Assembly: GCF_003063295.1 (NCBI RefSeq)
Contig: NZ_MUXF01000005.1
Coordinates: forward strand, 62,001-126,000
Source: Arcobacter lacus
GTDB lineage: Bacteria; Campylobacterota; Campylobacteria; Campylobacterales; Arcobacteraceae
Direction: 5' to 3'
DNA: 64,000 bases
The stretch's first letter is position 1; each line of letters opens with the position of its first letter. The notes under the pieces were generated by a model. That model searched no databases and was not told the origin of the DNA. It worked only from the letters and a program-made list of their open reading frames with translations. A program made the position numbers and the translations under genes. This document shows positions 3,701 to 21,037 of the stretch, piece after piece.

Positions 3701-6700
3701 ATGTCTCAAGTAGGAATAGTTAAAACTTTAGAAGGAGGAGTATTTTATGCAAAGGATTCTTCTGGAAATATTAGAGAACTAAGTATTGGAGATATAATAT
3801 CTGAAAATGAAATCGTATTTGGCGATAGCTCAAATTCTCCATCTGCAAAAGCAGAAGTGGAATTATCAGAAAATGATGTAATAGTTTTAAACCAAGCACA
3901 ACAACAATTGATAGACGCTTCTTTAAATGAAGTAACTTTTGGAAATGAAGAAGTAACTTTTGCAAAAAATGATGTACAGAATGCATGGAATAACACAGCA
4001 GATGATGTAAGTGATGATATGGAAACAGCTGCAGGTGATCCAACACAACAAGAGACACAAGCTGGACAAGAAGAACCAACAGAAGAAGGAAGAGTTTCTG
4101 CTAGATTTAGCTCTAGAGATGGAGATTCTACAAACGTTGTAAGTGATTTAAGAGATGCTTCTTGGACAGAAGAACAAACTACTATTATTCCTGATTTAGA
4201 AAATAAATTAATAGAACAACCATTACCAGTTGCTTTTACAATTATTGATGGAGATAATATAGTATGGGAAGGAAATACTGCAACTTATACTGTAAAAGTT
4301 GTAGATGCTGCTGGAAATCCAATTATTGTTAATCAAGATACAATAGTATATGTTAGATATACAAATATAGAAACAGATGACAATGATACACAATACACAC
4401 ATAACACAACAATAGCTGTTGTTGTTAAAGCAGGAACTAGTGAATCTACATTTACTGTAGAAACGAAAGATGATTATCTAGCAGATAATGGTGAAAGATT
4501 TAATCTAGAAATCACAGGTAATAATTCTACAGAATTTGATATGAGAACAGGAAATCAAACTGGTGGACAAACAAATGTTGATACTGCAATATTAGATAAT
4601 TCAAATCCAACAACTCCAGGAGGAGAAGATAATGGTTTTGGAGCAGAAGATACAGTTTTTGCAATAATAGAAGGAACAGCAACAGTAAATGAAGGTGATT
4701 CAGCTCAATATGTTGTAAAATTAGTAGATAAAGATGGAAATCCTGTAACTGTAACAAAAGATACAGAGGTAACTATAAAATATACAAATAAAACAACTCA
4801 AGATGGTGATACAGAATATAATAACAACGATACAATAAAAATTACTATTAAAGCTGGTGAAAATTCATCAGATAAATTTGATGTTGATACAATTGATGAT
4901 TATTTAGCAGATAATGGAGAAAAATTTAATTTAGAAATTACAAATGTTGATGATCAAGGACAATTTGAGAAAGTAAATATTGGTGATATAAATGGCGATA
5001 AAACAAATGTTGATACTACAATCTTAGATAATACAACTGATAAACCAAATGAAAATAGTACAGTAGAAAGTAATCAAGAAAATGTAATTTTAAAAATAGT
5101 AGCAGTTGGAGAAGATGGAAATCCAATAATTAAAGATGGTAAATATACATTTGAAAATAATGTAGCTGAAGGTTCAAATGCAAAATATATGGTATTAGCA
5201 TTTAAACCAGGTACAACAGAATTTAAAACAACAGATGTAGTTGATACTCAAGGTGGAACAGTTACTATAAAAACAACTGATGATACAGCAAAAACAACTG
5301 GAACAAAAGATAATGCAGAACTTGATTATGTATCTGAAACTTCAAAAATTGTAACTGTTGGAGAAGTATTTGAGATAAAAACTTTAGATGATTATTTATC
5401 AGATGATGGAGAAAAATATAAAGTATCAATAAATGATAAAACTTATGAACATCCAGCATCAGGTGCAATTTATGAAAATGTGGTTACAAATACTGATCCA
5501 GTAACAACAACAATAAAAGATAACACAACACCAAATACAGAAACAAATGTAGAAGATGTAAAAATAGTACTTGTAGCTGTATCATCTGCTACAACTACAA
5601 TTGCTGATATTACAGATACAACAACTGGAAAATTAATAATTGATAATACAAATGAAACGCCAGAAGGTGGAAAATTATATTATATTGCAGTTGCAGTTGA
5701 TAAAGATGGAAAACCTTTAGCTACTCAAGGTGGAGATGTTACAATAAATTATGGAACTACATCAACTACTTCAGATAAAGATGCAACAGCTGACATAGAT
5801 TATGATACTACAAAATTAACTACAAAAGTAGGAGAGGTATTTGAAGTAAAAACAAAAGATGATTATTATGCTGAAGGAGATGAAAACTTTACTGTAAAAA
5901 TTACAGATTTAGAGAATTCACCATATGAAACACCATCTATTGATACAACAAAAGATACTGTAACTTCAACGATAAAAGATAATGCACCAACAATAAATGG
6001 AACAGTTGTTTCAGGTGGTGAAGATACAGATGGAAATACTTATGGAGCAGAAGATACAGTATATGCAATCATTACTGGAGAAACAACAGTAAATGAAGGA
6101 GGAGAAGTTACATATACAGTTAAACTAGTTGATAAAGATGGTAATACTGTAATTCCAACAAAAGAAACGACAGTTACTGTAACTTATACAAATATTGGAA
6201 CAACATCAACAGATGATACAAATAAAACGAATAATCAAGAAATAGCTGTAAAAATAGATGCTTCAGGGAAAGGAACATTTACTGTAGAAACAAAAGATGA
6301 TTATTATGCAGAAGCTGATGAAAACTATAATGTAAAAATTACAAATGTACAAAATACGGGTGAATTTGAAAATGTAAAATTTGATAGTTATCCAAATACT
6401 ATTCCAAATAGTCCATCAAATAATGTTACTACAACGATTAAAGATAATCCATCAAAAGTTGAACAACCAGATACTGGAACAGGAAATGATGATCCAATAA
6501 ATGGAAGTTATGGAAAAGAAGATACCGTATATGTAAAAATTGAAGGTAATCCAACTGTAGTTGAAGGTGGAAAATTATCACATACTGTAACACTTGTAGA
6601 TAAAGATGGAAAAGCTGTAACTATTCCAGCTGGAGAAAGTGTAACAGTAACATTAACTTATACTATTAAACAAGATGGTGGTAGTTCAGATGATTATGTT

Positions 6701-9700
6701 ACAAAAGAAGAGACAATTATTATAAAAGGTGGAACATCTTCAACAACTTTTGAAAATATTACAAAAGTAGATTTTGTGACTGAAGGTAAAGAGATTTATG
6801 AAATCACAATATCAAAAGTTGAACAAAGTGGTGCTTTTGAAAATGTTGCTATTGATTCTACAGCAAATAAAGTAACAGATACAATCCTTGATGGTATTAC
6901 ATTAACAAATCCTCAAAATGCTTATGTTGATGAAGATAACTTCTATACAAATAAAAATGATGGAACAAATTCAACAACTAAAAATAGTAATATAAATGAT
7001 ACAAAAAGTTTAGGATTTACAATTCCAGCAAATTATGAAACAGAAGTTGGAACTTTTAGTGTTAATTTTGTGAGTGCACCAACAGTTACAGTTGATGGAA
7101 ATAATTATCCATTGACTTCAAATGGAGTAGCAATTACATATACAGTTAATGGAAATACAATTACTGCAAACGCAGGAAGTACAAAAGTTTTTGATATTGT
7201 TTTAAGCAAAGACGGAACATACACATATAAACAATATGCAAATATTGACCATCCAAACAGTGGAAATGCAAATACAGATTATGAAAATGTTAATACAAAT
7301 GATAATATAAATTTAAATTTTGAATTTAATATTACTACAACACCTAAAAATGGAGAACCTTCTACAACAAGTCCTACTCAAGGCTTTACAGTTACAGTAA
7401 ATGACTCTACTCCAGATGCAGGAACAAGAACAGAAACAGTAAATGAAGATGGAACTTTAACTATTGTTTTAAGTGATGAATCATTTAAAAATGGATCTAT
7501 TGAAATAGATAATGGAAAAGATGGATATCAAACTATTGCTAAAAATGGAACAGTTAATATTTATGATGGTGATGAAATTATTGGAACACTTACAAATAAA
7601 GGAAATGGGACTTTAACTTTTAAACCAAATGCAGATTATAGTAAATATGAAGCTGATAATGGTTATTTACCAAATTTTAAATATAAAGTTAGTGATACTG
7701 ATGGAGATTATGCGCAAGGACAAATCAATATTCATGTTAAACCAGTAGCTGATGGTACAACTATTAAAGTAGAAAATGTAACAACTCATGAAGATAATAA
7801 AAATACTCAAGAAGGGCAAAATTCTGTATCTTTAGGATTAGTACAACCAACTATTAAGGATAATACAGATAAAAATGACACTGCAAAAGGTGACCATGGT
7901 GAAAGAGTTGATTATATTACACTTAAATTTACAAATGGAACTTCTGTAAAAGGTGCCGTTTTAGAAAAAGCTGATGGTACTGATATTGCTACAATTTCTA
8001 ATAATAATCAAACTGTTAAAATAGTTATTGTTAAAGATGATGGAACAGGAAAAATGATAGTAGACACAGATTTCCATCATTCAAATATTACTTTGGGACA
8101 ATCTGGAGTAGTTTATCTTACAAAAGAGGAATATGAAGGATTAAAAATCCAACATGCTGAAGATAATGATACAGATATAGTAATTAATATCTCAACAAGA
8201 AGTTATGAAGTTAATGATAGTGGAGAACCTTTATCTGGTGTAAATTCAAAATCAAATAATTCAAATATGACTGTAGTTATTAAACCAGTAACTGATGATA
8301 TTAGTTTAAAATGGAATGATGAGAGTGCAGGAACAATATCTGATAGTGGAAAAACTTACACATTTAATGATATAGATGAAGGAAATCCTACTATTGATTT
8401 AAAAGCACTTCTTACAAAAACAAGTGGAACAGAACTAAATGATGAAACGGCTGGAAACAAAGCTGATTTAGATGGAAGTGAAAAAAGAACATATACAATT
8501 TCTGGTATTCCAGAAGGTACAGTTGTAACTTTAGGTGGACAAACTGCTGTTGCAAATGATAAAGGTATTGCAACTATAGTATTTAATGATACAAATAATA
8601 AAAATGCAGATCCAGATTTCTCTATGAAATTCCCTGAAAATTACTCTGGAACAGTCGAAGGAAAGATTACTTTAAGTGTTTATGATAATGGTGTAGAATC
8701 TGGACAAAGAGATACAACAGATTATGGAAATGGTGCAAATGGCATTAAAACTGCTGAAGTTGATTTTAAAGTAAATGTGTATCCTGTTGCAAATGAAGCT
8801 ACACTTAAAGTTAGTCAAGCTGTAGGTTATGAAGATGCTGGAAGAAGTCAAGGAAATATTTCAAATGGAAGTGATGCTTCAAAAGTTGATCAACCAGAAA
8901 AAGGAATTTCACTTGATATAAAAGTTAGTTCTACTGATACAGATGGAAGTGAAACAATTACTATCAATATAAACAAAATACCAAGTGGTGGATATATCTA
9001 CTATAAAGGTGGATTGTATGATGAAAATGGTTTTGTAAGTGGTACTAAAACTGATGCTATAAGTATTACAAAAACAGGAAGTACTTGGTCAATAACTGTT
9101 CCTGAATACAACAATGAAAGTCCAAAATTTATTCCTCCTCATAATAGTGATGAAGAATATAATTTAGAAGTTACAGCACAAACAGTAGATACTGCTATTA
9201 TTGATGGTCAAGAAGTTGTTGAAACTTCAACTATTTCATCTCCTAAAATTATAGAAGTTATTGTAAAAGGTGTAGCAGATATTCCTGTTGGAACAGAATT
9301 AAACAATGATGGAAATGAAAATGCTTATACTGTTGGTGAAAATGATTTAGATAGTAGTGGAAATAAATTTGATTTAAAAGTTATTTATAAAGATGCTTCT
9401 AAATTAGATTCTTATGATAATGATGGTTCTGAAGAACTTTCAATTGTAATAAAAGGTCTACCAGATGGATTTAGCGTAGAGGGAGCACTACCTACAGGTG
9501 ATGGAGAATGGGCATTTAATGCAAAAGATTTAGATAAAATCAAAATTACAACACCTTCAAATTTTAGTGGTGAAGCTTCATTTACGTTAACTTATGTGAC
9601 AACAGAAAGAGAAGGAAACAGTAAAGTTCATTATACTCAAGATGTAAATATCTACATAAATCCAGAAATTGATTCAACACTTAATGGTCAATCAGTTGGA

Positions 9701-12469
9701 AATGAAGATGAAGTAGTAACTATAAATTTAAATCTTATTCATAATAATGGTGATGCTGATGAAACTTTAGAAGAAGTAAAAATTAGTGTAGATGATGTTA
9801 CTGGAAAAGATTTTACCTTATTTATAGGTGGAGTAGATATTAAAGATGCTGGACTTACAATAAAAGATGGTTATTATGTGTTAACACCAGCTCAAGCAAA
9901 AACTATTACAGCTCAAGGAAAAGAAAATATTTCTGGTGAATATGAATTTGATGTAAAATATACAGTTAAAGATGTAGCAAATGATGGTAAAGCTGAAATA
10001 AAAGAATTTGATGCAACTCATAATTTAGTTATTAATCCTGTAACAGATCAACCAACTATTGATTTTGGAACAATAGAGGTAACAGGAAGTAATATAACTG
10101 TAAATGGTACAGATATAAAAATCGTTGGAGATAAAAAATCAACTATTGAAATTCCAGTTGAAACAACAAGTCTTGATACAGATGGTTCTGAAAAAGTTGT
10201 AGAAATTAGAATAGAAGGAGTTCCTGCTGGAGTAAAAGTTGTAGGTGGTGAATCTTCAACTGAAGCATTAGAAATTAGCCAAAATAATGGTGTTTGGACA
10301 ATAAAAGTTGATGAAACTATAACAGATATCAATGAAATTATCAAAAATATAAAATTCGAAATAGATTCAGACGCAAAATTCTCACATAGAGAAATCACTA
10401 TTACAACTGTAACTCAAGATAAAAATGCTGAAACTAAAGAAGCTAGTAAAACTATAACTATTGATTACGATAAAGCACCTGGAACTGGTGGTGGAACAGG
10501 AGAAGCTGCAAACTTTAGTTTAGTAGCAAAAGATTTTATAGTTACAGAAGATAAAGAGTTTAGATTAACAAATTTATTTGATATAAAAACTAATGGTGGA
10601 GAGGTTGAAGGTACAAGTTGGACTATTACGCTTACAGATTTACCAGAAGGTACTATTATAAATGGAACAGTTATTGGAGCAGACGGTAAATATGTTATAG
10701 AAAGTAAATTAGATGGTCAAGATATTTATGATATAGAATCAATTATCTCTAGTATCAAAATAACTCCACCAGCAAATTTAAATGATTATGATAATAGTAC
10801 AAAATCTATGACAATTACTGCAACAATTGAAACAAAAGTAGGTCAAACTGTAATTTCTACAAGTGAAGTAGAAAATGATTCTACAATTTTACCGGTAACA
10901 GATAAAATGACGGTTACTGTTGATGCAGTAAATGAAATAGATGAAAGTGGAAGCTTTGAGTTTGGAATTACTTTATCAAGTACGGGTGATAATGAATCTA
11001 GAACAGATATAGTTGGAGAAACTATTGTTATTACAGTTTCTGAAAACTTCGAATCAGGAGAAACAGCAACAGGTGAATTGCTTTACAATGGTCAAGTATT
11101 AACACCAAATACAAATGGACAATATGAGATAGAAGTTCCAACTGGATATAAATTTGGTGATAAAATTGAAGGATTAGAGTATAAATCAGGTGAACAAAGA
11201 CATGGTAATGTAACTATTACAGCTTCAATTAAACATCAAGAAACAGAAGCACATGATAATTATGAAACAAATGTAGAAAATGCAAGTGGAAGTGCAACTG
11301 TAAATGTAAAACCAGTTTTAGATGCAAATCCAGATGATATAAAAATAACAGCAAATTCTGTTGAAGATACTATCATTGATGTTAAAATTGAAGATACTCA
11401 GTTTATTACAGATAATTCTGAAAATTTAATAAATGTAATTTTTAATGATATACCAAAAGATTTTATAGTTTACTATAAAGATGCAAATGGAAATACAAAA
11501 ATGGCTGTAAACACAGGAGATGGTAAATGGTTAGTTCCTGTTGTTAATGGAAACCTTCCTGATGGAATTCAAATCAAAGCACCAGAGAATTATAGTGGTG
11601 AATTTAAATTTAATATGGATTTCTATATCAAAGAAGAAGGATTAGATTTACAAAAAATTACAAAAGAGGCAACAGTTAATGTAACACCAATAGCGGATGG
11701 TGTTACTATTGACCCTACTCTTTCAGGTATTCAAGATGATGGTAGTTACGCAAAAGCATTTGAATGGACAGATTTAAATTTAAATGCGAATATGAAAGAT
11801 GTTGATGGAAGTGAAACTTTAACTCTAAAATTTGATGGTTTAAGTCAAAATGCACAATTTAGAATTTTAGCTGAAGATGGAACAGCAAAATCAGTAGATG
11901 CTCTTTATGAAAATGGAGAATGGACAATCAATGGAATAAACGTTGATGATATAAATAATATTCAGTTATTACATGATAAAGAAGCAACTGTAAAAGTTAC
12001 AGCAAGCACAGTTGATACAGCAACTGATGAAAATGGAAATCCAGTTGGAAGTTCAAGTACATCAACAGAAGTAGAAAGCACATTTGATTTAAGAATTGAT
12101 TCATCTGATATTGATAATGGTAAATTTACTTTAGGAAAAGAAGTAAATATAGATTTCTCTAAAATTGAAAATGGAGATATAAAAGATATAAATACAATTG
12201 ATTTAGGTGCAGAAGGTAAAAATGAACTTTTAAATCTTACACTTCAAGATGTATTAGATATAGGTGAAAAAGATGGAGATGGAAATATCAATCTTACAAT
12301 TCTTGGAGATGATAAAGATGGTGTTTCTTTTGCGAAAAATGATGGTTGGCAAAAATCTGAAATAACACAAACTATAGGTGATAAAACATTTGAAGTTTGG
12401 TCAAATACAGGAGATAATACTGTTACGGTTAAAGTAGAACAACCAATTTCAGATGGAATTACAAACTAA
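3701..12469 (+). CDS. LapA/BapA-like giant repeat adhesin with retention module
   Basis: A 2922-residue secreted surface protein. Residues 1-100 match the retention module of LapA-type adhesins, which plugs the outer-membrane TolC-like pore. TAAG at 109-112 fits the di-alanine site cut by periplasmic LapG proteases. From about 177 to 1060 there are six Calx-beta-like repeats of 120-165 residues, starting near 177, 318, 463, 620, 786 and 942; each carries a KVVDAAGNP or KLVDKDGNP type strand, a TKDDYLADNGE-like loop and an ILDN end. A VCBS-like part and several cadherin-like repeats with DTDGSE motifs follow. The last 120 residues resemble the VCA0849-type type I secretion target region. I saw no cysteine. 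No signal peptide is present, as expected for type I export. No exporter or LapD/LapG gene is in the window. Confidence 0.88.
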   Translation: MSQVGIVKTLEGGVFYAKDSSGNIRELSIGDIISENEIVFGDSSNSPSAKAEVELSENDVIVLNQAQQQLIDASLNEVTFGNEEVTFAKNDVQNAWNNTADDVSDDMETAAGDPTQQETQAGQEEPTEEGRVSARFSSRDGDSTNVVSDLRDASWTEEQTTIIPDLENKLIEQPLPVAFTIIDGDNIVWEGNTATYTVKVVDAAGNPIIVNQDTIVYVRYTNIETDDNDTQYTHNTTIAVVVKAGTSESTFTVETKDDYLADNGERFNLEITGNNSTEFDMRTGNQTGGQTNVDTAILDNSNPTTPGGEDNGFGAEDTVFAIIEGTATVNEGDSAQYVVKLVDKDGNPVTVTKDTEVTIKYTNKTTQDGDTEYNNNDTIKITIKAGENSSDKFDVDTIDDYLADNGEKFNLEITNVDDQGQFEKVNIGDINGDKTNVDTTILDNTTDKPNENSTVESNQENVILKIVAVGEDGNPIIKDGKYTFENNVAEGSNAKYMVLAFKPGTTEFKTTDVVDTQGGTVTIKTTDDTAKTTGTKDNAELDYVSETSKIVTVGEVFEIKTLDDYLSDDGEKYKVSINDKTYEHPASGAIYENVVTNTDPVTTTIKDNTTPNTETNVEDVKIVLVAVSSATTTIADITDTTTGKLIIDNTNETPEGGKLYYIAVAVDKDGKPLATQGGDVTINYGTTSTTSDKDATADIDYDTTKLTTKVGEVFEVKTKDDYYAEGDENFTVKITDLENSPYETPSIDTTKDTVTSTIKDNAPTINGTVVSGGEDTDGNTYGAEDTVYAIITGETTVNEGGEVTYTVKLVDKDGNTVIPTKETTVTVTYTNIGTTSTDDTNKTNNQEIAVKIDASGKGTFTVETKDDYYAEADENYNVKITNVQNTGEFENVKFDSYPNTIPNSPSNNVTTTIKDNPSKVEQPDTGTGNDDPINGSYGKEDTVYVKIEGNPTVVEGGKLSHTVTLVDKDGKAVTIPAGESVTVTLTYTIKQDGGSSDDYVTKEETIIIKGGTSSTTFENITKVDFVTEGKEIYEITISKVEQSGAFENVAIDSTANKVTDTILDGITLTNPQNAYVDEDNFYTNKNDGTNSTTKNSNINDTKSLGFTIPANYETEVGTFSVNFVSAPTVTVDGNNYPLTSNGVAITYTVNGNTITANAGSTKVFDIVLSKDGTYTYKQYANIDHPNSGNANTDYENVNTNDNINLNFEFNITTTPKNGEPSTTSPTQGFTVTVNDSTPDAGTRTETVNEDGTLTIVLSDESFKNGSIEIDNGKDGYQTIAKNGTVNIYDGDEIIGTLTNKGNGTLTFKPNADYSKYEADNGYLPNFKYKVSDTDGDYAQGQINIHVKPVADGTTIKVENVTTHEDNKNTQEGQNSVSLGLVQPTIKDNTDKNDTAKGDHGERVDYITLKFTNGTSVKGAVLEKADGTDIATISNNNQTVKIVIVKDDGTGKMIVDTDFHHSNITLGQSGVVYLTKEEYEGLKIQHAEDNDTDIVINISTRSYEVNDSGEPLSGVNSKSNNSNMTVVIKPVTDDISLKWNDESAGTISDSGKTYTFNDIDEGNPTIDLKALLTKTSGTELNDETAGNKADLDGSEKRTYTISGIPEGTVVTLGGQTAVANDKGIATIVFNDTNNKNADPDFSMKFPENYSGTVEGKITLSVYDNGVESGQRDTTDYGNGANGIKTAEVDFKVNVYPVANEATLKVSQAVGYEDAGRSQGNISNGSDASKVDQPEKGISLDIKVSSTDTDGSETITININKIPSGGYIYYKGGLYDENGFVSGTKTDAISITKTGSTWSITVPEYNNESPKFIPPHNSDEEYNLEVTAQTVDTAIIDGQEVVETSTISSPKIIEVIVKGVADIPVGTELNNDGNENAYTVGENDLDSSGNKFDLKVIYKDASKLDSYDNDGSEELSIVIKGLPDGFSVEGALPTGDGEWAFNAKDLDKIKITTPSNFSGEASFTLTYVTTEREGNSKVHYTQDVNIYINPEIDSTLNGQSVGNEDEVVTINLNLIHNNGDADETLEEVKISVDDVTGKDFTLFIGGVDIKDAGLTIKDGYYVLTPAQAKTITAQGKENISGEYEFDVKYTVKDVANDGKAEIKEFDATHNLVINPVTDQPTIDFGTIEVTGSNITVNGTDIKIVGDKKSTIEIPVETTSLDTDGSEKVVEIRIEGVPAGVKVVGGESSTEALEISQNNGVWTIKVDETITDINEIIKNIKFEIDSDAKFSHREITITTVTQDKNAETKEASKTITIDYDKAPGTGGGTGEAANFSLVAKDFIVTEDKEFRLTNLFDIKTNGGEVEGTSWTITLTDLPEGTIINGTVIGADGKYVIESKLDGQDIYDIESIISSIKITPPANLNDYDNSTKSMTITATIETKVGQTVISTSEVENDSTILPVTDKMTVTVDAVNEIDESGSFEFGITLSSTGDNESRTDIVGETIVITVSENFESGETATGELLYNGQVLTPNTNGQYEIEVPTGYKFGDKIEGLEYKSGEQRHGNVTITASIKHQETEAHDNYETNVENASGSATVNVKPVLDANPDDIKITANSVEDTIIDVKIEDTQFITDNSENLINVIFNDIPKDFIVYYKDANGNTKMAVNTGDGKWLVPVVNGNLPDGIQIKAPENYSGEFKFNMDFYIKEEGLDLQKITKEATVNVTPIADGVTIDPTLSGIQDDGSYAKAFEWTDLNLNANMKDVDGSETLTLKFDGLSQNAQFRILAEDGTAKSVDALYENGEWTINGINVDDINNIQLLHDKEATVKVTASTVDTATDENGNPVGSSSTSTEVESTFDLRIDSSDIDNGKFTLGKEVNIDFSKIENGDIKDINTIDLGAEGKNELLNLTLQDVLDIGEKDGDGNINLTILGDDKDGVSFAKNDGWQKSEITQTIGDKTFEVWSNTGDNTVTVKVEQPISDGITN
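4025..4036 (+). other. Predicted LapG cleavage site codons (TAAG)
   Basis: These four codons give T109-A110-A111-G112 directly after the retention module and before the first repeat. In characterised LapA-type adhesins a TAAG or PAAG motif at about residue 107 is cut by LapG when c-di-GMP is low, releasing the adhesin. Position and sequence both match. Confidence 0.65.
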
Positions 12470-14881: not shown

Positions 14882-17266
14882 ATGTCAATTATGATTCAAA
14901 AAAGAAATGGTCGTAAAGAACTTTTAGACATTACAAAAATTCAAAAAATGTCTATGGAAGCAACAAAAGGTTTAGAAGGTGTTAGTCAAAGTGAACTAGA
15001 ACTTGATGCACATATAAAATTTATTGATGGTATGCACTCTAAAGATATTCAAGATGCATTAATTAAAACTGCAGTTGAAAAAATCGATATTGATGTACCA
15101 AATTGGACTTTTGTTGCAGCACGTCTATTTTTATTTGATTTATATCATAGAGTAGGAATTGCAACTCATGGTGTAAAAGGTGAAGCATATTGTCATTTTA
15201 AAGATTATATAAAATATGGAATTGAAGCTGGAAGATTAATACCAAGTATTGCAGATGGTTACGATTTAGATGAACTAAATGCATATATTGACCCTTCAAG
15301 AGACCTTTTATTTAACTATTTAGGAATAAAAACTTTATATGATAGATATTTAATAAAAAATAGAAAAGCTGAACCAATAGAGTTACCACAACAAATGTTT
15401 ATGGCAATAGCTATGTTTTTAGCTCAAAATGAAAAAGATAAACAATCAAAAGCAAAAGAGTTTTATGATGTAATTTCTAAATTTGAAGTTATGTTAGCAA
15501 CTCCAACTTTATCAAATGCTAGAACAAATAGACATCAATTAAGTTCTTGTTACATTGGTTCAAGTCCTGATAATATCGAAGGTATTTTTGATGGTTACAA
15601 AGAGATGGCACTTCTATCTAAATATGGTGGTGGAATTGGTTGGGATTGGAACCAAATCAGAAGTTTAGGTGGAGTTATTGATGACCACAAAAGTGCTGCT
15701 GGTGGAACTGTACCATTTTTAAAAATTACAAATGATTTAGCTATTGCAGTTGACCAATTAGGTACAAGAAAAGGAGCAATTGCTGTTTATCTTGAGCCTT
15801 GGCATATGGATATAGTTGATTTTGTTGATTTAAAGAAAAACTCTGGAGAAGAAAGAAGAAGAGCACATGACTTATTCCCTGCTCTTTGGATTTCTGATTT
15901 ATTTATGGAAAGAGTAATGGAAGACTCTTATTGGACTTTATTTGACCCTTATGAAGTAAGAGATTTAAGTGAAACATTTGGTGATGAGTTCAAAGCAAAA
16001 TATATAGCTTATGAAAATGATGAATCTATCACAAAAGATAGAATGAAAGCAAAAGATTTATGGAAAAAAATCTTAACTTCATATTTTGAAGTTGGAAGTC
16101 CATTCTTATGTTGGAAAGATACAGCAAACAGAACAAATCCAAACTCTCATGTAGGACATATTAGAAGTTCAAACCTTTGTACAGAGATTTTCCAAAATAC
16201 AAATCCAAACCACTATAAAATCAAATTAGAGTTTGAAGATGGTACAGTTTCTACTTATGAAGAGACAGATTTAGTAGTTGTTGATGGTGGAGTTACTAAA
16301 AAAGCAAATAAAGTTTCTGCACTTGATAGTGTAAATGGTAAAAGAGTATTTATTGTTGAAAAAGAGAAAATTGATGGAGATACAGCAGTTTGTAATTTAG
16401 CTTCTATAAATCTATCAAAAATAAATACAAAAGAAGACATAGAAAGAGTTGTTCCAACTGCAATAAGAATGCTTGATAATGTAATAGATTTAAACTTCTA
16501 TCCACTTAGAAAAGTAAAAGCAACAAACTTAAAATCAAGAAGTATTGGTTTAGGTGTTATGGGTGAAGCAGAGATGTTAGCTCAATATCAATTAGCTTGG
16601 GGTTCAACTGAACACTTCAAAAAAGTTGATCAAATTATGGAAGCAATTTCATATAATACAATTAAATCAAGTTCAGATTTAGCAAGTGAAAAAGGTGTAT
16701 ATCCTACATTTGAAGGTTCAAAATGGAGTAAAGGTATTATGCCTCATGATTTAGCTCCTCAAGCTGTTAATGCACTTGTAGATAAAGATTTATTTGATAC
16801 AAGTTATGATTGGGATAGTTTAAGAGAAAAAGTTAAAAAAGACGGTATGAGAAATGGTTACTTAATGGCTATTGCTCCTACTTCTTCTATTTCTATTCTT
16901 GTAGGAACTACACAAGCAATAGAACCTGTTTATAAAAGAAAATGGTTTGAAGAGAACTTATCAGGATTAATTCCAGTTGTTGTTCCAAAATTAAGTCCAG
17001 AAACATGGGCTTATTATACACCTGCTTTTGAAATTGACCAATTACAAGTTATCAAAGCAGCAGCAATTAGACAAAAATGGATTGACCAAGGGCAATCAAC
17101 AAATATTTTTATGAGTTTAGATAAAGCAAGTGGAAAATATTTACATGAAATTTATACATTAGCTTGGAAATTAGGACTTAAATCGACTTACTATTTAAGA
17201 AGCCAAAGTCCAGAAGCAAAAAATGATGTAGAAGATAGAAGTATGGAGTGTGCAGGCTGCCAATAA
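14882..17266 (+). CDS. nrdA: Class I ribonucleoside-diphosphate reductase, alpha subunit
   Basis: The 794-residue large subunit reduces ribonucleoside diphosphates to deoxy forms, using a radical supplied by NrdB. An ATP-cone-like regulatory domain fills residues 1-90. The redox cysteine pair is C223 (SSCYIG) and C504 (AVCNLASINL), the thiyl radical cysteine is C433 (SNLCTEI), and the C-terminal relay cysteines lie in MECAGCQ. The stretch between C433 and C504 is 71 residues, against 23 in the Escherichia coli enzyme, so about 48 residues are inserted next to the active site. RBS GGGTAACC precedes the ATG. nrdB follows after 32 bases. Confidence 0.96.
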   Translation: MSIMIQKRNGRKELLDITKIQKMSMEATKGLEGVSQSELELDAHIKFIDGMHSKDIQDALIKTAVEKIDIDVPNWTFVAARLFLFDLYHRVGIATHGVKGEAYCHFKDYIKYGIEAGRLIPSIADGYDLDELNAYIDPSRDLLFNYLGIKTLYDRYLIKNRKAEPIELPQQMFMAIAMFLAQNEKDKQSKAKEFYDVISKFEVMLATPTLSNARTNRHQLSSCYIGSSPDNIEGIFDGYKEMALLSKYGGGIGWDWNQIRSLGGVIDDHKSAAGGTVPFLKITNDLAIAVDQLGTRKGAIAVYLEPWHMDIVDFVDLKKNSGEERRRAHDLFPALWISDLFMERVMEDSYWTLFDPYEVRDLSETFGDEFKAKYIAYENDESITKDRMKAKDLWKKILTSYFEVGSPFLCWKDTANRTNPNSHVGHIRSSNLCTEIFQNTNPNHYKIKLEFEDGTVSTYEETDLVVVDGGVTKKANKVSALDSVNGKRVFIVEKEKIDGDTAVCNLASINLSKINTKEDIERVVPTAIRMLDNVIDLNFYPLRKVKATNLKSRSIGLGVMGEAEMLAQYQLAWGSTEHFKKVDQIMEAISYNTIKSSSDLASEKGVYPTFEGSKWSKGIMPHDLAPQAVNALVDKDLFDTSYDWDSLREKVKKDGMRNGYLMAIAPTSSISILVGTTQAIEPVYKRKWFEENLSGLIPVVVPKLSPETWAYYTPAFEIDQLQVIKAAAIRQKWIDQGQSTNIFMSLDKASGKYLHEIYTLAWKLGLKSTYYLRSQSPEAKNDVEDRSMECAGCQ

Positions 17267-17298
17267 TTGCCTGCTTAAAAAAATATAAAGGACTTTAA

Positions 17299-18318
17299 AT
17301 GGAAAGAAAAACTAATTATAACCCTGATTCTAAAGAGAGCTTAAACGATAGAAGAGTTTTTGGTGGAAATAGTGATGGAATGATCAATTTCACTAGAATG
17401 AAATATCAATGGGCTTTAAATCTTTGGGATACAATGGAGGCAAATACTTGGTTTCCAAGAGAAGTTCAAATGACAGGTGATGCAAAAGATTATAAGTTTT
17501 TAACACCTGCTGAAAAAAGAATGTATGATTTAGTTTTATCTCAACTTATCTTTATGGATTCTTTACAAACAAATAATCTAATGGATAATATAAATCCTTA
17601 TATTACTGCTCCTGAAATAAATGCTTGTTTAGCAAGACAATCTTACGAAGAAGCAAATCATAGTAAATCTTACGCAGTTATGGTTGAATCAATTTCTGAT
17701 AACACAGATTTGATTTATGATATGTGGAAAAATGATGCAAAATTAAGAGAAAAAAATACATATATTGCTGAAGTTTATAAAAATCTTTCAGGTGAAATTG
17801 ATGATAGAAAAATTCTTTTAGCACTTTTTGCAAATCAGATTTTAGAAGGTTTATATTTTTATGCTGGATTTGCAGCTATTTATGCTCTTGGAAAATCAGG
17901 AAAGATGCTTGGAAGTTCTCAAATGATTAGATTTATTCAAAGAGATGAAGTAACACACCTTTTATTATTTCAAAATATGATAAATAGTGTAAGAAAAGAA
18001 AGACCTGATTTATTTACAGATGAAGTAGAACAAACTGTAAGAGCTATGTTTAAAAAAGCTGTTGATTTAGAGGCTTCTTGGGGAGCATATATCACTCAAG
18101 GACAAATTCTAGGATTTACAGATGGAATTATTAGACAATATATTGAATATCTTGCTGATAGAAGACTTGAAGCTGTTGGATATAAACCAGAATATGGAGT
18201 AAAACATCCAATTCCATGGGTTGATGGTTATGCTTCATTTAATGACCAAAGAACGAATTTCTTTGAAGGGAATGTTGTAAATTATTCTAAAGGTTCTATT
18301 GACTTTGACGATTTTTAA
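17299..18318 (+). CDS. nrdB: Class I ribonucleoside-diphosphate reductase, beta subunit
   Basis: The 339-residue small subunit carries the metal cofactor and tyrosyl radical. The ligand sets are visible: Asp in FMDSLQ, Glu and His in EEANHSKSY with the radical Tyr four residues after the His, Glu in QILEGLYF, and Glu and His in RDEVTHLL. The presence of that Tyr argues for a class Ia or Ib-like di-iron enzyme and not the Tyr-less class Ic. It ends in DFDDF, resembling the C-terminal tail that docks on NrdA. It is the last gene of purB-nrdA-nrdB. Confidence 0.95.
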
Positions 18319-18425
18319 AAAAAGAAGATTTTCTAATCTTTCTTTTTGCCAATCTCTGCGTTGGCACTCGTATTTTAAGGACTCACTTACACCAGTAAGC
18401 TCATCCCTAAAATCCAATCACCGCC
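18319..18425. repeat. GC-richer structured element (dispersed repeat or small RNA)
   Basis: This spacer after nrdB differs sharply from its AT-rich surroundings. It contains GCCAA/TTGGC around 18350-18367 and a long imperfect hairpin in which ATTTTAAGGA pairs with TCCCTAAAAT and CTTAC pairs with GTAAG around ACCA, leaving a symmetrical CTCA/CTCA internal loop. On the minus strand it ends in AGATT/AATCT followed by a T-rich tail at 18319-18335, a plausible terminator, and TATGAT at 18447-18452 could serve as a promoter. Either a REP-like dispersed repeat or a roughly 120-nt RNA fits. A 60-codon minus-strand frame through it looks accidental. Confidence 0.5.
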
Positions 18426-18476
18426 TTGACCTTAACAAAAATAAAAATCATAAAATCTCTTTTTGGAGGAATTGAA

Positions 18477-19316
18477 ATGAGAAAGAAATTTTCTGAAAGA
18501 AATGGCTATAAAAATCCAAGAGATGCTTTACAAGTAGAATTTATAAATGACGATTTGAGAAATAGATTATGGAATAATATAAAAATGACATATCTTGATG
18601 GTTTGAGTACTCAATATAACTCAGAGGATTTAAATTTAAATGATAATTTAGAAATATATAAAATTAAACAATTATATGATTCTTTCTTTAAAACACATGA
18701 AGAACCACCTAGGAATAGGAGACAATTAAAAAAAGATATTAAAAATAAATATTTCTTGTTAAAATGGTTTGAAATCTATGATTTAGTAGAATATTTACCT
18801 GAATTATTTAAAAGAGAATTTTCAACTTTTTGTGAAGATATTAATGAAGTTTTAGAGGAAGAGAATTCAGGATATAGATTTGTAGAAGGCTTAATTGTAC
18901 AAATTATCGATGAAGTTGAAATAAAAGAAATTGAAGAAGTTTTTGAATCTAAATATGTTACTGCAAAAGGGCATTTATCAAAAGCTTTAGAGCTTTTAAG
19001 TGATAGAGAAAATCCTGATTATCAAAACTCAATAAAAGAATCTATAAGTGCAGTAGAATCAATTGTAAATTTAATTTCAGGAAAAACAAATGTGGCATTA
19101 AATAAATGTTTTCAATATATTCCTTTTGAAATTGATGAAAATTTTCAAAGTGGGATGATGAAACTTTATAATTGGACTTCTTCTTCTGATGGAATTAGAC
19201 ATGCTTCTAATGGAAATGAAATTAAAAGTTCATTTGCTGAAGCAAAATATATGGTAGTTTCATGTTCAGCTTTTATTAATTATTTAATATTAAAACAAGA
19301 AGAAATTAAAAATTAA
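18477..19316 (+). CDS. AbiJ-NTD4 domain protein (abortive-infection type)
   Basis: A 279-residue protein whose first 45 residues carry the AbiJ_NTD4 signature, FSERNGY at 5-11 and DDLRNRLWN at 25-33. AbiJ N-terminal domains are found in phage-defence (abortive infection) proteins; their biochemical action is unknown. Residues 132-200 (GYRFVEG...NSIKESISAVESIV) and the GIRHASNG turn at 239-246 belong to the conserved C-terminal half of this family. The ATG at 18477 is chosen because GGAGGA lies just upstream; an in-frame TTG at 18426 is less likely. It stands alone, directly after the structured repeat, between nrdB and housekeeping genes, which suggests acquisition by transfer. Confidence 0.8.
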   Translation: MRKKFSERNGYKNPRDALQVEFINDDLRNRLWNNIKMTYLDGLSTQYNSEDLNLNDNLEIYKIKQLYDSFFKTHEEPPRNRRQLKKDIKNKYFLLKWFEIYDLVEYLPELFKREFSTFCEDINEVLEEENSGYRFVEGLIVQIIDEVEIKEIEEVFESKYVTAKGHLSKALELLSDRENPDYQNSIKESISAVESIVNLISGKTNVALNKCFQYIPFEIDENFQSGMMKLYNWTSSSDGIRHASNGNEIKSSFAEAKYMVVSCSAFINYLILKQEEIKN

Positions 19317-19344
19317 ATTTATATTTTTCGATTGGAGAGAAATA

Positions 19345-19758
19345 ATGTTAACACAAAATATAATGCCAAGATTTAGCGAAACAGATGCTTTAGGACATAT
19401 AAATAACAATACTTATGGAGTTTGGTTTGAAGCAGCAAGGGAGCCAATATATAAGCTATTTTTACCAAATTTAAATATAAAAAAATGGTGTTTAGTTATG
19501 GCACATAGTTCAAACGACTTTTTAAAAGAAGTTTTTTGGGGTGATGAAGTTATTGTAAAAACTGCTGTTTCAAAGATAGGAAATTCATCTTTTGAGCTAA
19601 AACACGCAGTTTATCAAAAAGGTGTTTTATGTACATCTTCAAAAACAGTTTTGATTCATTATGATTTTGATTCAAAAATAGCTATAAAAATTCCAGATAA
19701 CATAAAAGCAAAATTAGAAGAGCATATTTTTACAGATAACTGGGATTTAAAAATATAA
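19345..19758 (+). CDS. Hotdog-fold acyl-CoA thioesterase (YbgC/FadM-like)
   Basis: A 137-residue hotdog-fold protein. SETDALGHINNNTYGVWFE at residues 11-29 is the 4-hydroxybenzoyl-CoA thioesterase family motif, with the Asp of ETDALGH as the catalytic acid. Such cytosolic enzymes hydrolyse short or medium acyl-CoA esters; the true substrate is unknown. It is followed after 16 bases by a small unknown gene, probably in the same transcript. Confidence 0.85.
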   Translation: MLTQNIMPRFSETDALGHINNNTYGVWFEAAREPIYKLFLPNLNIKKWCLVMAHSSNDFLKEVFWGDEVIVKTAVSKIGNSSFELKHAVYQKGVLCTSSKTVLIHYDFDSKIAIKIPDNIKAKLEEHIFTDNWDLKI

Positions 19759-19774
19759 TAAAAAGGAATAATTA

Positions 19775-20026
19775 ATGCCAATTTCAAGAGTAAAAGATTT
19801 TTTAGAAAATGAGTTAGAAAATTTAGACAATTTTTCTTATACAATAGATAAAGATGATAATCATATTTATGTAATATTTTCAATAATTTTAGGTGAAAAC
19901 TCAAATAAAGAGTTAACTTTTAAACTTTTAAATAATATTTTATATTTGCACTCTATAACTTATGGATGGAAGCCTGTAGAAAAAGGAAGTGCAAATAAAT
20001 ACTTTTGGATAGAAGTTTTGAAATAA
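19775..20026 (+). CDS. Conserved-looking small protein of unknown function
   Basis: An 83-residue soluble protein with a good AAGGA site before its ATG. It has an acidic amphipathic start, alternating hydrophobic strands (HIYVIFSIIL) and a C-terminal part rich in aromatic residues (YGWKPVEKGSANKYFWIEVLK). I do not recognise a family. It follows the thioesterase gene closely. The frame, ribosome site and balanced composition support a real gene. Confidence 0.6.
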   Translation: MPISRVKDFLENELENLDNFSYTIDKDDNHIYVIFSIILGENSNKELTFKLLNNILYLHSITYGWKPVEKGSANKYFWIEVLK

Positions 20027-20086
20027 TTTTTAACAAAATTTTTATAATTATGATATAATAAAATAATTTACTGTGAGGTTTTCCTA

Positions 20087-21037
20087 ATGTCAATTTTTGG
20101 TAAGATTATTTTATTATTATTTATATTTTTACTTTTAAATTTTATATCTATTTTCACTTTCGATTACGATGAATATTTTAAAGATAAAAGTCATAATCTT
20201 TCTTTTGAAAATAAAAGTAATTTTGAATTTTTTCATAAAACAGAATATAAACCTTCAGATTTTACTATAACAAAAATTGATAATCTTATTGAATTAAGTG
20301 GTACTTTTGAAAATCACAATATTGTGCTAGATGTTATTCAAGCCTTAGGAATAAATAAAGAAGGTACATTAACTTATGAAAACAATGTTGTAGTTGATAA
20401 ACAAGTATTAGAAACAATTTTTCTTTTAATCGTACCATTTAAAGATTTTTTTGCAGATAACTCAAAAATATCAGTTGTAAACAACGAAATATTACTTTCT
20501 GGTGAGTTAAAAAATAAAATGTATAAAAATCTAATCGATACAATTATTTTACAAAAAAGCAATAACATCACATTAAATACACAAATCTCTATTCCAGAAG
20601 AAAATCCAATAAATAATGAACAAAATGAAAATAATAACGAAGAACATATAACTACTGGCACAATTTTAAAATTATCTGATATTCAGTTATTAATAAACAA
20701 TATTTTAAAAGATAAAAAAATAAGTTTTGAAAGAAAAAGTTCTATTCCTACTACAGAATCACAAAATACTCTTCATGAAATTGCGAAAATTTTAAATGAA
20801 AATCCAAATTTTAAAGTTGAAGTAGCAGGACATACAGATTCAAGAGGAGAAGCTGCTTTAAATAAACAAATTTCTCAAGATAGAGCAAATAGTGTAAAAA
20901 ATATTTTAGTAAGCAATGGAGTAAATGAATCTAGAATCACAGCAATTGGTTATGGAGAAGAATTTCCTATTGCAAAAGATGATGAAAATGGATTGTCGGA
21001 AATTAATCGTAGGGTGGAATTTATTATAGGAGAGTAG
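20087..21037 (+). CDS. OmpA family protein with N-terminal membrane anchor
   Basis: A 316-residue envelope protein. Residues 4-22 are a single hydrophobic helix with no clear signal peptidase site, so it is probably anchored in the inner membrane and faces the periplasm. Residues 60-170 contain two similar strand-helix units (LSGTFENHNIVLDVIQAL; LSGELKNKMYKNLIDTII), reminiscent of BON-type domains. After an Asn/Glu-rich linker, residues 195-316 form an OmpA C-terminal peptidoglycan-binding domain (VAGHTDSRG, SQDRANSV, RITAIGYGEE, NRRVEF). The architecture resembles ArfA/OmpATb-like proteins. The next gene begins four bases after its stop. Confidence 0.85.
   Translation: MSIFGKIILLLFIFLLLNFISIFTFDYDEYFKDKSHNLSFENKSNFEFFHKTEYKPSDFTITKIDNLIELSGTFENHNIVLDVIQALGINKEGTLTYENNVVVDKQVLETIFLLIVPFKDFFADNSKISVVNNEILLSGELKNKMYKNLIDTIILQKSNNITLNTQISIPEENPINNEQNENNNEEHITTGTILKLSDIQLLINNILKDKKISFERKSSIPTTESQNTLHEIAKILNENPNFKVEVAGHTDSRGEAALNKQISQDRANSVKNILVSNGVNESRITAIGYGEEFPIAKDDENGLSEINRRVEFIIGE

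Follow-up and report, generated by a model that had tools for sequence, protein, structure and literature searches.

An ERIC-like palindrome probably nested in the nrdB intrinsic terminator of a Campylobacterota genome

The spacer between nrdB and an AbiJ-like abortive infection gene in Arcobacter lacus is a real, conserved element that is ERIC-like and not REP. In the literature that we found, Campylobacterota are not described as ERIC hosts. We read it, with a probability of about 0.64, as an old, non-autonomous, MITE-like palindrome of the ERIC family nested in the intrinsic terminator of nrdB. The core with its motifs, the covariation and the similarity to the ERIC profile are directly supported, and so are the position and orientation relative to stop codons in two groups of elements and the nesting at fabI and guaB. 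The window, that is the whole stretch of 64,000 nucleotides analysed (contig NZ_MUXF01000005.1, positions 62,001 to 126,000), had been annotated in an earlier note which singled out this spacer as a foreign, structured repeat or small RNA; that observation is real and richer than described, and it is partly confirmed here. The features of the locus are collected in Table 1.

Table 1. Features of the nrdB–AbiJ spacer and its borders (window coordinates)
Feature	Position	Strand	Basis or remark
Presumed nrdB, ribonucleotide reductase small subunit	17299..18318	+	ORF; stop TAA 18316-18318
nrdB intrinsic-terminator-like A/U-rich hairpin and T-run	18319..18348	+	Predicted fold; also the element's left outer arm
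Conserved body, ERIC-like element	18345..18432	.	blastn relatives, covariance model R1
Left motif GCGTTGG	18358..18364	+	Motif conservation
Core CTCACTTAC-ACCA-GTAAGCTC	18382..18402	+	Overlaps both ERIC-PCR primers
Core as read on the minus strand, GAGCUUAC...GUAAGUGAG	18382..18402		
Right motif GCCTTGA	18423..18429	+	
Right outer arm, degenerate reverse complement of left arm	18436..18466	+	
AbiJ-like abortive infection gene	18477..19316	+	Pfam PF18863, E 1.1e-27; PADLOC PDC-S32
Thioesterase-like gene, right border of variable gene slot	19345..19758	+	Pfam PF13279

The spacer forms one long imperfect hairpin, about 18319-18466, around the core CTCACTTAC-N4-GTAAGCTC, with arms of lower G+C that extend from the conserved inner part to the nrdB stop codon and to about 18466. 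A hairpin had been claimed here before, but it is longer than was thought. The AbiJ-like gene directly 3′ of it is a neighbour and lies outside the element. The upstream gene, which we take to be nrdB because its sequence was recognised rather than on a family search, has matches in 29 of the 31 genomes of the genus (missing in G016 and G019). The spacer had also been called GC-rich and foreign. Over 18345-18432 the first part is correct, with 45.5% G+C against 27.8% for the window, a value reached by 0.1% of 88-nt windows; over the originally proposed 18319-18452 the value is 35.1%, which 8.3% of 134-nt windows reach, so that the GC-rich part is the inner element. The excess sits in the conserved body and its motifs, and the composition carries no sign of a recent import. 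Nested pairing was rightly proposed: both strands fold better than all of 200 dinucleotide shuffles (z −3.72 for the plus strand, 18310-18440; z −4.37 for the minus strand, 18310-18455), and the symmetrical CTCA/CTCA loop, located at 18382-18385 and 18400-18403, forms part of the strongly conserved core. ARAGORN detected no tRNA in 17000-20500. Far from the spacer, one uninterrupted ORF (2922 aa) occupies 3701-12469 of the window; it contains repeated motifs and, judged by eye, resembles a large RTX-type adhesin.

The element is neither single-copy nor devoid of conserved pairing, the combination that the earlier note had set against its own proposal: there is a second copy in the same genome, and the covariation is strong. 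A blastn search of the genome of origin (G000), as well as a relaxed core pattern, finds the window copy only; among the 31 genus genomes, blastn recovers it at the nrdB locus of G003 (92%) and G002 (72%) and gives short matches in G024 and G028 at fabI-lysA. The second G000 copy was found by the covariance model R1 (C1:239130-239240, 60 bits) and follows what we take, from its end, to be lepA. Altogether this model finds 71 copies in 20 of the 31 genomes, two of them in the genome of the window and up to nine per genome, all of these being lower bounds as 121 candidates per genome were scored. With a free loop of 3-8, the core pattern has 41 matches, which are spread over 20 of the 397 phylum genomes, and its reversed control has none. 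A scan of genome contigs yielded at least 120 stretches with the strict core, and among the matches listed are Vibrio, Colwellia, Pseudomonas, Yersinia, Mariprofundaceae, Bacteroidetes and Clostridia. In seventeen genomes picked for holding the core, copy numbers range from 1 to 32 and the control pattern is absent, the 32 copies being those of Yersinia frederiksenii; in the phylum of Yersinia, centre included, the core occurs in 27 of 299 genomes, with one control match noticed. Plasmid and phage collections contained no match to the element, and viral contigs contained eight core stretches, of which L197 and L199, judged by eye, look like genuine elements. In Clostridiaceae BL-3, whose genome has eight core copies, one strict core (L082, 1267-1287) lies between the 23S and 16S rRNA genes. 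The suggestion of a dispersed repeat is thus borne out; its REP-like nature is not, the element being ERIC-like and low-copy in its host genome.

ERIC has been in use for strain typing for decades; to our knowledge it has no known mobiliser and supposedly a narrow host range. The comparison used the two standard ERIC-PCR primers, ERIC1R and ERIC2. In the core, ERIC1R comes together with the reverse complement of ERIC2, and the primers point outward from exactly there. The ERIC core at this meeting point (TCACTTAC...GTAAGCTC) is present in the element, but the ERIC arms beyond it (CTGGGGATTCAC / CTGGGGTGAGCG) are absent from L001 and L032: ERIC1R fits best at a place outside the element, with 7 mismatches, and ERIC2 shows 9 and 10 mismatches at the element. 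With the outer ERIC arms missing, we therefore call the element ERIC-like rather than ERIC proper. Standard ERIC primers would probably not prime on the window element because their outer halves are unmatched there. Elsewhere, ERIC1R fits L160 with a single mismatch and the Mixta locus L083 with three. In length the element is in line with the ~127 bp of ERIC (112 positions in R1, about 148 bp for the whole hairpin), and it shares with ERIC a long imperfect palindrome with a conserved fold. Both primer strings appear in Arcobacter typing papers (PMC12299246, PMC7075591, PMC4619883), ERIC primers being in use for typing in this genus too.

The similarity extends to the profile. R1 was built from 34 elements, nearly all from Arcobacteraceae and excluding L060-L063 from other Campylobacterota families; the window copy, which it scores at 100.5 bits, is among the training rows. 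Of 86 non-Arcobacteraceae loci R1 found 70 and missed 16, with scores that are inflated because the loci were selected by their core, so that part of the score is built in. All 13 Yersinia loci supplied were recovered (E 3.9e-10 to 0.03, best 56.6 bits), as were loci from Bacteroidetes (L105, 80.8 bits), a Chromatiales bacterium (L109, 76.2) and Clostridia (L088, 51.5). The misses all hold the strict core and include Vibrio L091, Colwellia L096, Bacteroidales L089 and Clostridium L148. R1 also identified copies away from the strict core (L147:3415-3526, 57.2 bits; L139:6539-6625; L143:4791-4900). The word CCTTG is found in the right arm of 33/38 elements of the Arcobacteraceae set, 35/64 mainly proteobacterial elements and 11/14 Bacteroidota elements, against averages of 2.5, 6.2 and 0.6, respectively, for permuted words; we quote means, as the permuted pentamers include shifted copies of the motif and their maxima are high. 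In Yersinia the word GCCTTG does not mark the right arm (7/24 right vs 8/24 left) and in Firmicutes CCTTG occurs in 3/10, low counts which imply that the motif is not universal.

A 2024 review (PMC10969869) gives ERIC Enterobacteriaceae and Vibrionaceae as hosts, with 30 to 711 copies, and a stem-loop survey recorded it in E. coli, Y. pestis and V. cholerae (PMC2267715). Table 1 of PMC2229807 lists TA termini and a target site duplication for it, and the same paper regards movement by transposases as lacking experimental support. Unlike the hosts named in the 2024 review (PMC10969869), those of the present element also include Campylobacterota, Bacteroidetes and Clostridia; our literature search, mostly of non-subscription papers, found no recognisable report of ERIC elements in other phyla. 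With ERIC, IRU and RU-1 the element has in common the core, an imperfect palindrome of 100-150 bp, an intergenic location and dispersal, and R1 recovers the Yersinia copies. It differs from them by outer arms that are locus-specific, by few copies per genome and, in the Campylobacterota set, by a fixed orientation after stop codons.

Other known systems resemble the element in single traits. REP and BIME palindromes, mobilised by RAYT, are likewise short palindromic intergenic repeats. For REPs, PMC3733652 gives a length of 20-40 bp and, in its title, the tags GTAG or CGTC. Compared by length, our element is several times longer, at about 110-148 bp. Group IIC introns insert beside intrinsic terminators in one orientation, which recalls the placement of the element; unlike them, it is about 110 nt long and palindromic, with no Rfam match in the window. 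Integron attC sites are imperfect palindromes right after a stop codon of which the bottom strand folds, but the element is dispersed after housekeeping genes and has other conserved letters.

The core lies 37-71 nt past a stop codon on the same strand in 33 of 40 Campylobacterota elements, a set that includes L060-L063 from outside Arcobacteraceae, of which one in four obeys the rule. It does so too in 49 of 66 other, mainly proteobacterial elements; here 45 of the 66 are titled or fetched, with 34 of the 45 in agreement, and the set also took in those of the 40 loci L154-L193 that remained after 14 had been grouped by likeness. All position counts exclude elements near a contig end, with flanks more than 80 or 85% alike, or from viral loci. 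Elsewhere the rule is followed by 4/12 elements in Firmicutes, 8/25 in Yersinia, 0/8 in other Enterobacteria and 0/15 in Bacteroidota. Within the genus, 20 of the 71 copies found by the model were fetched and all 20 obey, at 42-63 nt, after seven different genes; by sequence, the upstream genes presumably include nrdB, fabI, guaA, guaB, lepA, hypD and amtB. The outer end of the hairpin is at most 10 nt from the stop codon in 67 of the 73 aligned elements having such a stop, a count given without a null and after 23 of 96 elements with weak arms had been dropped. A distant relative of ERIC in a different phylum, seated at the end-of-gene signal of nrdB, suggests that this family of repeats has a wider distribution and a more orderly placement than the name ERIC implies.

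A T-rich hairpin near 18319 had been seen as the end of a minus-strand RNA. The segment 18319-18348 folds alone on the plus strand, in the place of an nrdB terminator. Read by eye, the 29 fabI-lysA gaps of the genus divide into 10 with an element, 2 with a decayed one and 17 with neither (fabI is missing in G017 and its end in G019). In the empty sites of G000, G003, G004, G010, G011 and G016 a terminator hairpin begins at the stop codon, and in filled sites the left arm, loop and part of the right arm of the terminator precede the element, which is followed by the base of the right arm and the T-run. At guaB, plain terminators are carried by G004, G019, G022, G023 and G025, while G001, G021 and G029 have a similar hairpin, then the element and then a second copy of the right arm, exact to degenerate. 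The empty fabI and guaB sites could be ancestral or result from deletion of the hairpin; because the element is present at fabI in several genera, partial loss is likely. A terminator finder gave no excess of one arm over the other (3 left vs 2 right of 40 in Campylobacterota), and a terminator scan requiring three G-C pairs did not list 18319-18348; the energy cut-off of the finder misses A/U-rich terminators, so that the nesting rests on the orthologous sites read by eye. Across the outer flanks, direct repeats such as a target duplication would leave exceed the null in only 2 of 47 cases and inverted repeats in 37 of 47. As a separate matter, an inverted duplication of the upstream coding end was considered as an insertion signature and rejected (10/73 vs 18/207 swapped controls). 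At fabI-lysA, G024 carries two elements in opposite orientation and G028 one, and a similar element stands in opposite orientations in these related species (L265 in G024, L262 in G028).

The palindrome would have been inserted into, or lost from, a terminator hairpin, the arms of which may have become the outer arms of the element. It might be retained for a continuing role of the compound hairpin in ending or capping the upstream transcript, and the core could be recognised by a mobilising or binding factor, probably on the folded minus strand. The strict core, the strand-biased fold and, in some groups, the terminator-linked position offer handles on such a factor.

The pairing of the arms is well conserved. 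In 121 non-redundant elements the mean arm pairing score is 13.3 compared to 1.35 with arms exchanged, and 97 of them score above the null's 95th percentile; the outer arms vary by locus yet remain complementary. Covariance folding, proposed earlier as a check, revealed paired changes well above shuffles in the fabI set, which comprises 14 orthologous elements from at least five genera with a fold of 48 pairs. Nineteen of the 48 pairs have changed on both sides (10.1 in shuffles), and 96.0% of cells are paired; shuffling gives 87.9% and sliding no more than 48.8%. None of 500 shuffles reaches any of five measures, a count not to be read as a probability, since the fold comes from these same, mutually related rows.

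The element folds better on the minus strand. Isolated mismatches in the outer arms of 53 elements, counted with a scoring favouring neither strand, comprise 74 C/A (wobble on the minus strand) against 7 G/T (wobble on the plus strand), and 79 pyrimidine against 21 purine pairs; this count left out 68 of the 121 elements, which did not have both motifs or had weak arms. In the fabI set, with a fold chosen for the minus strand, 87 wobble cells favour the minus and 11 the plus strand. The bias may reflect selection on the minus strand, or the right arm may simply be poor in G: on the plus strand it is G-poor, and a C in the left arm stands opposite A 51 times and opposite T 37 times (p 0.17). 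We therefore rejected the asymmetry as proof of an RNA, as composition could account for it.

Both wobble counts would nevertheless agree with the proposal of a small RNA gene, in which a promoter on the right drives a roughly 120-nt minus-strand hairpin RNA antisense to the end of nrdB, and the better-preserved fold is indeed that of the minus strand. However, the putative −10 box TATGAT is absent from the six promoter-like sites found in 18000-18800, a number with no clear excess over the 4.7 average in shuffles, and a common promoter is improbable since the right outer arms vary between loci. Rfam gave no match above the gathering threshold in the window and, at ten further loci, four matches (rRNA, tRNA, TPP riboswitch), none at an element. 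The two mismatch types on the minus strand are about equal (68 G-A, 74 G-U), where an RNA would be expected to favour G-U; we infer that this resembles the tolerance of DNA hairpins more than that of RNA. The small-RNA reading is unproven, and we hold it to be quite improbable. Very improbable, in our opinion, is a purely bulky terminator, i.e. ordinary terminators grown by hairpin template-switching with cores that converged. It would fit the nesting in terminators and the position at stop codons, but termination requires neither a fixed 17-base core in several phyla nor the GCGTTG/GCCTTG motifs, and in Yersinia the core is identical though the stop-codon rule mostly fails.

The same mismatch spectrum would suit a single-stranded DNA hairpin used for recombination, the folded minus strand serving as an attC-like site of insertion or cassette exchange at which defence genes are swapped. 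In G000 and G003 nrdB and the element are similar, and the likeness ends near the end of the right arm. Flush with the end of the element, G000 has AbiJ (PF18863) and G003, in its stead, putAbiC (PF16872); the two sequences converge again some 32 bp short of the thioesterase start. At nrdB an accessory gene, defined as a first downstream ORF of at least 80 aa with homologues at the locus in at most three other genomes, comes next in 7 of 7 genomes that carry the element there and in 3 of 22 that lack it (Fisher 7.7e-5, kinship ignored). The nrdB slot is thus variable, but the element is not shown to be the cause. In counts that likewise ignore kinship, no association exists at guaA (5/11 with the element vs 11/18 without; gene missing in G017 and G019) or guaB (5/5 vs 21/25; locus missing in G026), R1 detects no further element on contig C5 to bound AbiJ on its far side, and attC end boxes were sought by eye against the consensus. 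We consider recombination of this kind rather unlikely. The hot spot beside a defence gene that had been suggested consequently applies to nrdB and, as a general property, is unsupported at guaA and guaB. None of the other genes scanned from these slots had a convincing match in Pfam or PADLOC. A wider proposal, tentative and on balance unlikely, is that ERIC represents the enterobacterial branch of a multi-phylum hairpin family, whose minus strand would fold as single-stranded DNA and be inserted into intrinsic terminators in one orientation by some machinery, the terminator providing the locus-specific arms and the end of the element a joint for the exchange of accessory genes, abortive-infection genes among them.

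Some further observations concern the gaps themselves. The element-free nrdB-thioesterase gaps L205, L210 and L227 extend over about 450-490 bp with no ORF of 80 aa, and L205 and L210 start with a common hairpin-like stretch. The guaA 3′ flanks of G000 (L378) and G009 (L385) apparently hold the left half of an ERIC-like element only, and the next gene begins where the right half would be. Another palindrome, with a core near TGTACTTGTAGTACA, follows guaA in L365, L368, L371, L372, L373, L379 and L391 and is perhaps a sister family; in G018 (L375) a TGTACTTGTAGTACA-type palindrome stands in tandem with an ERIC-like element.
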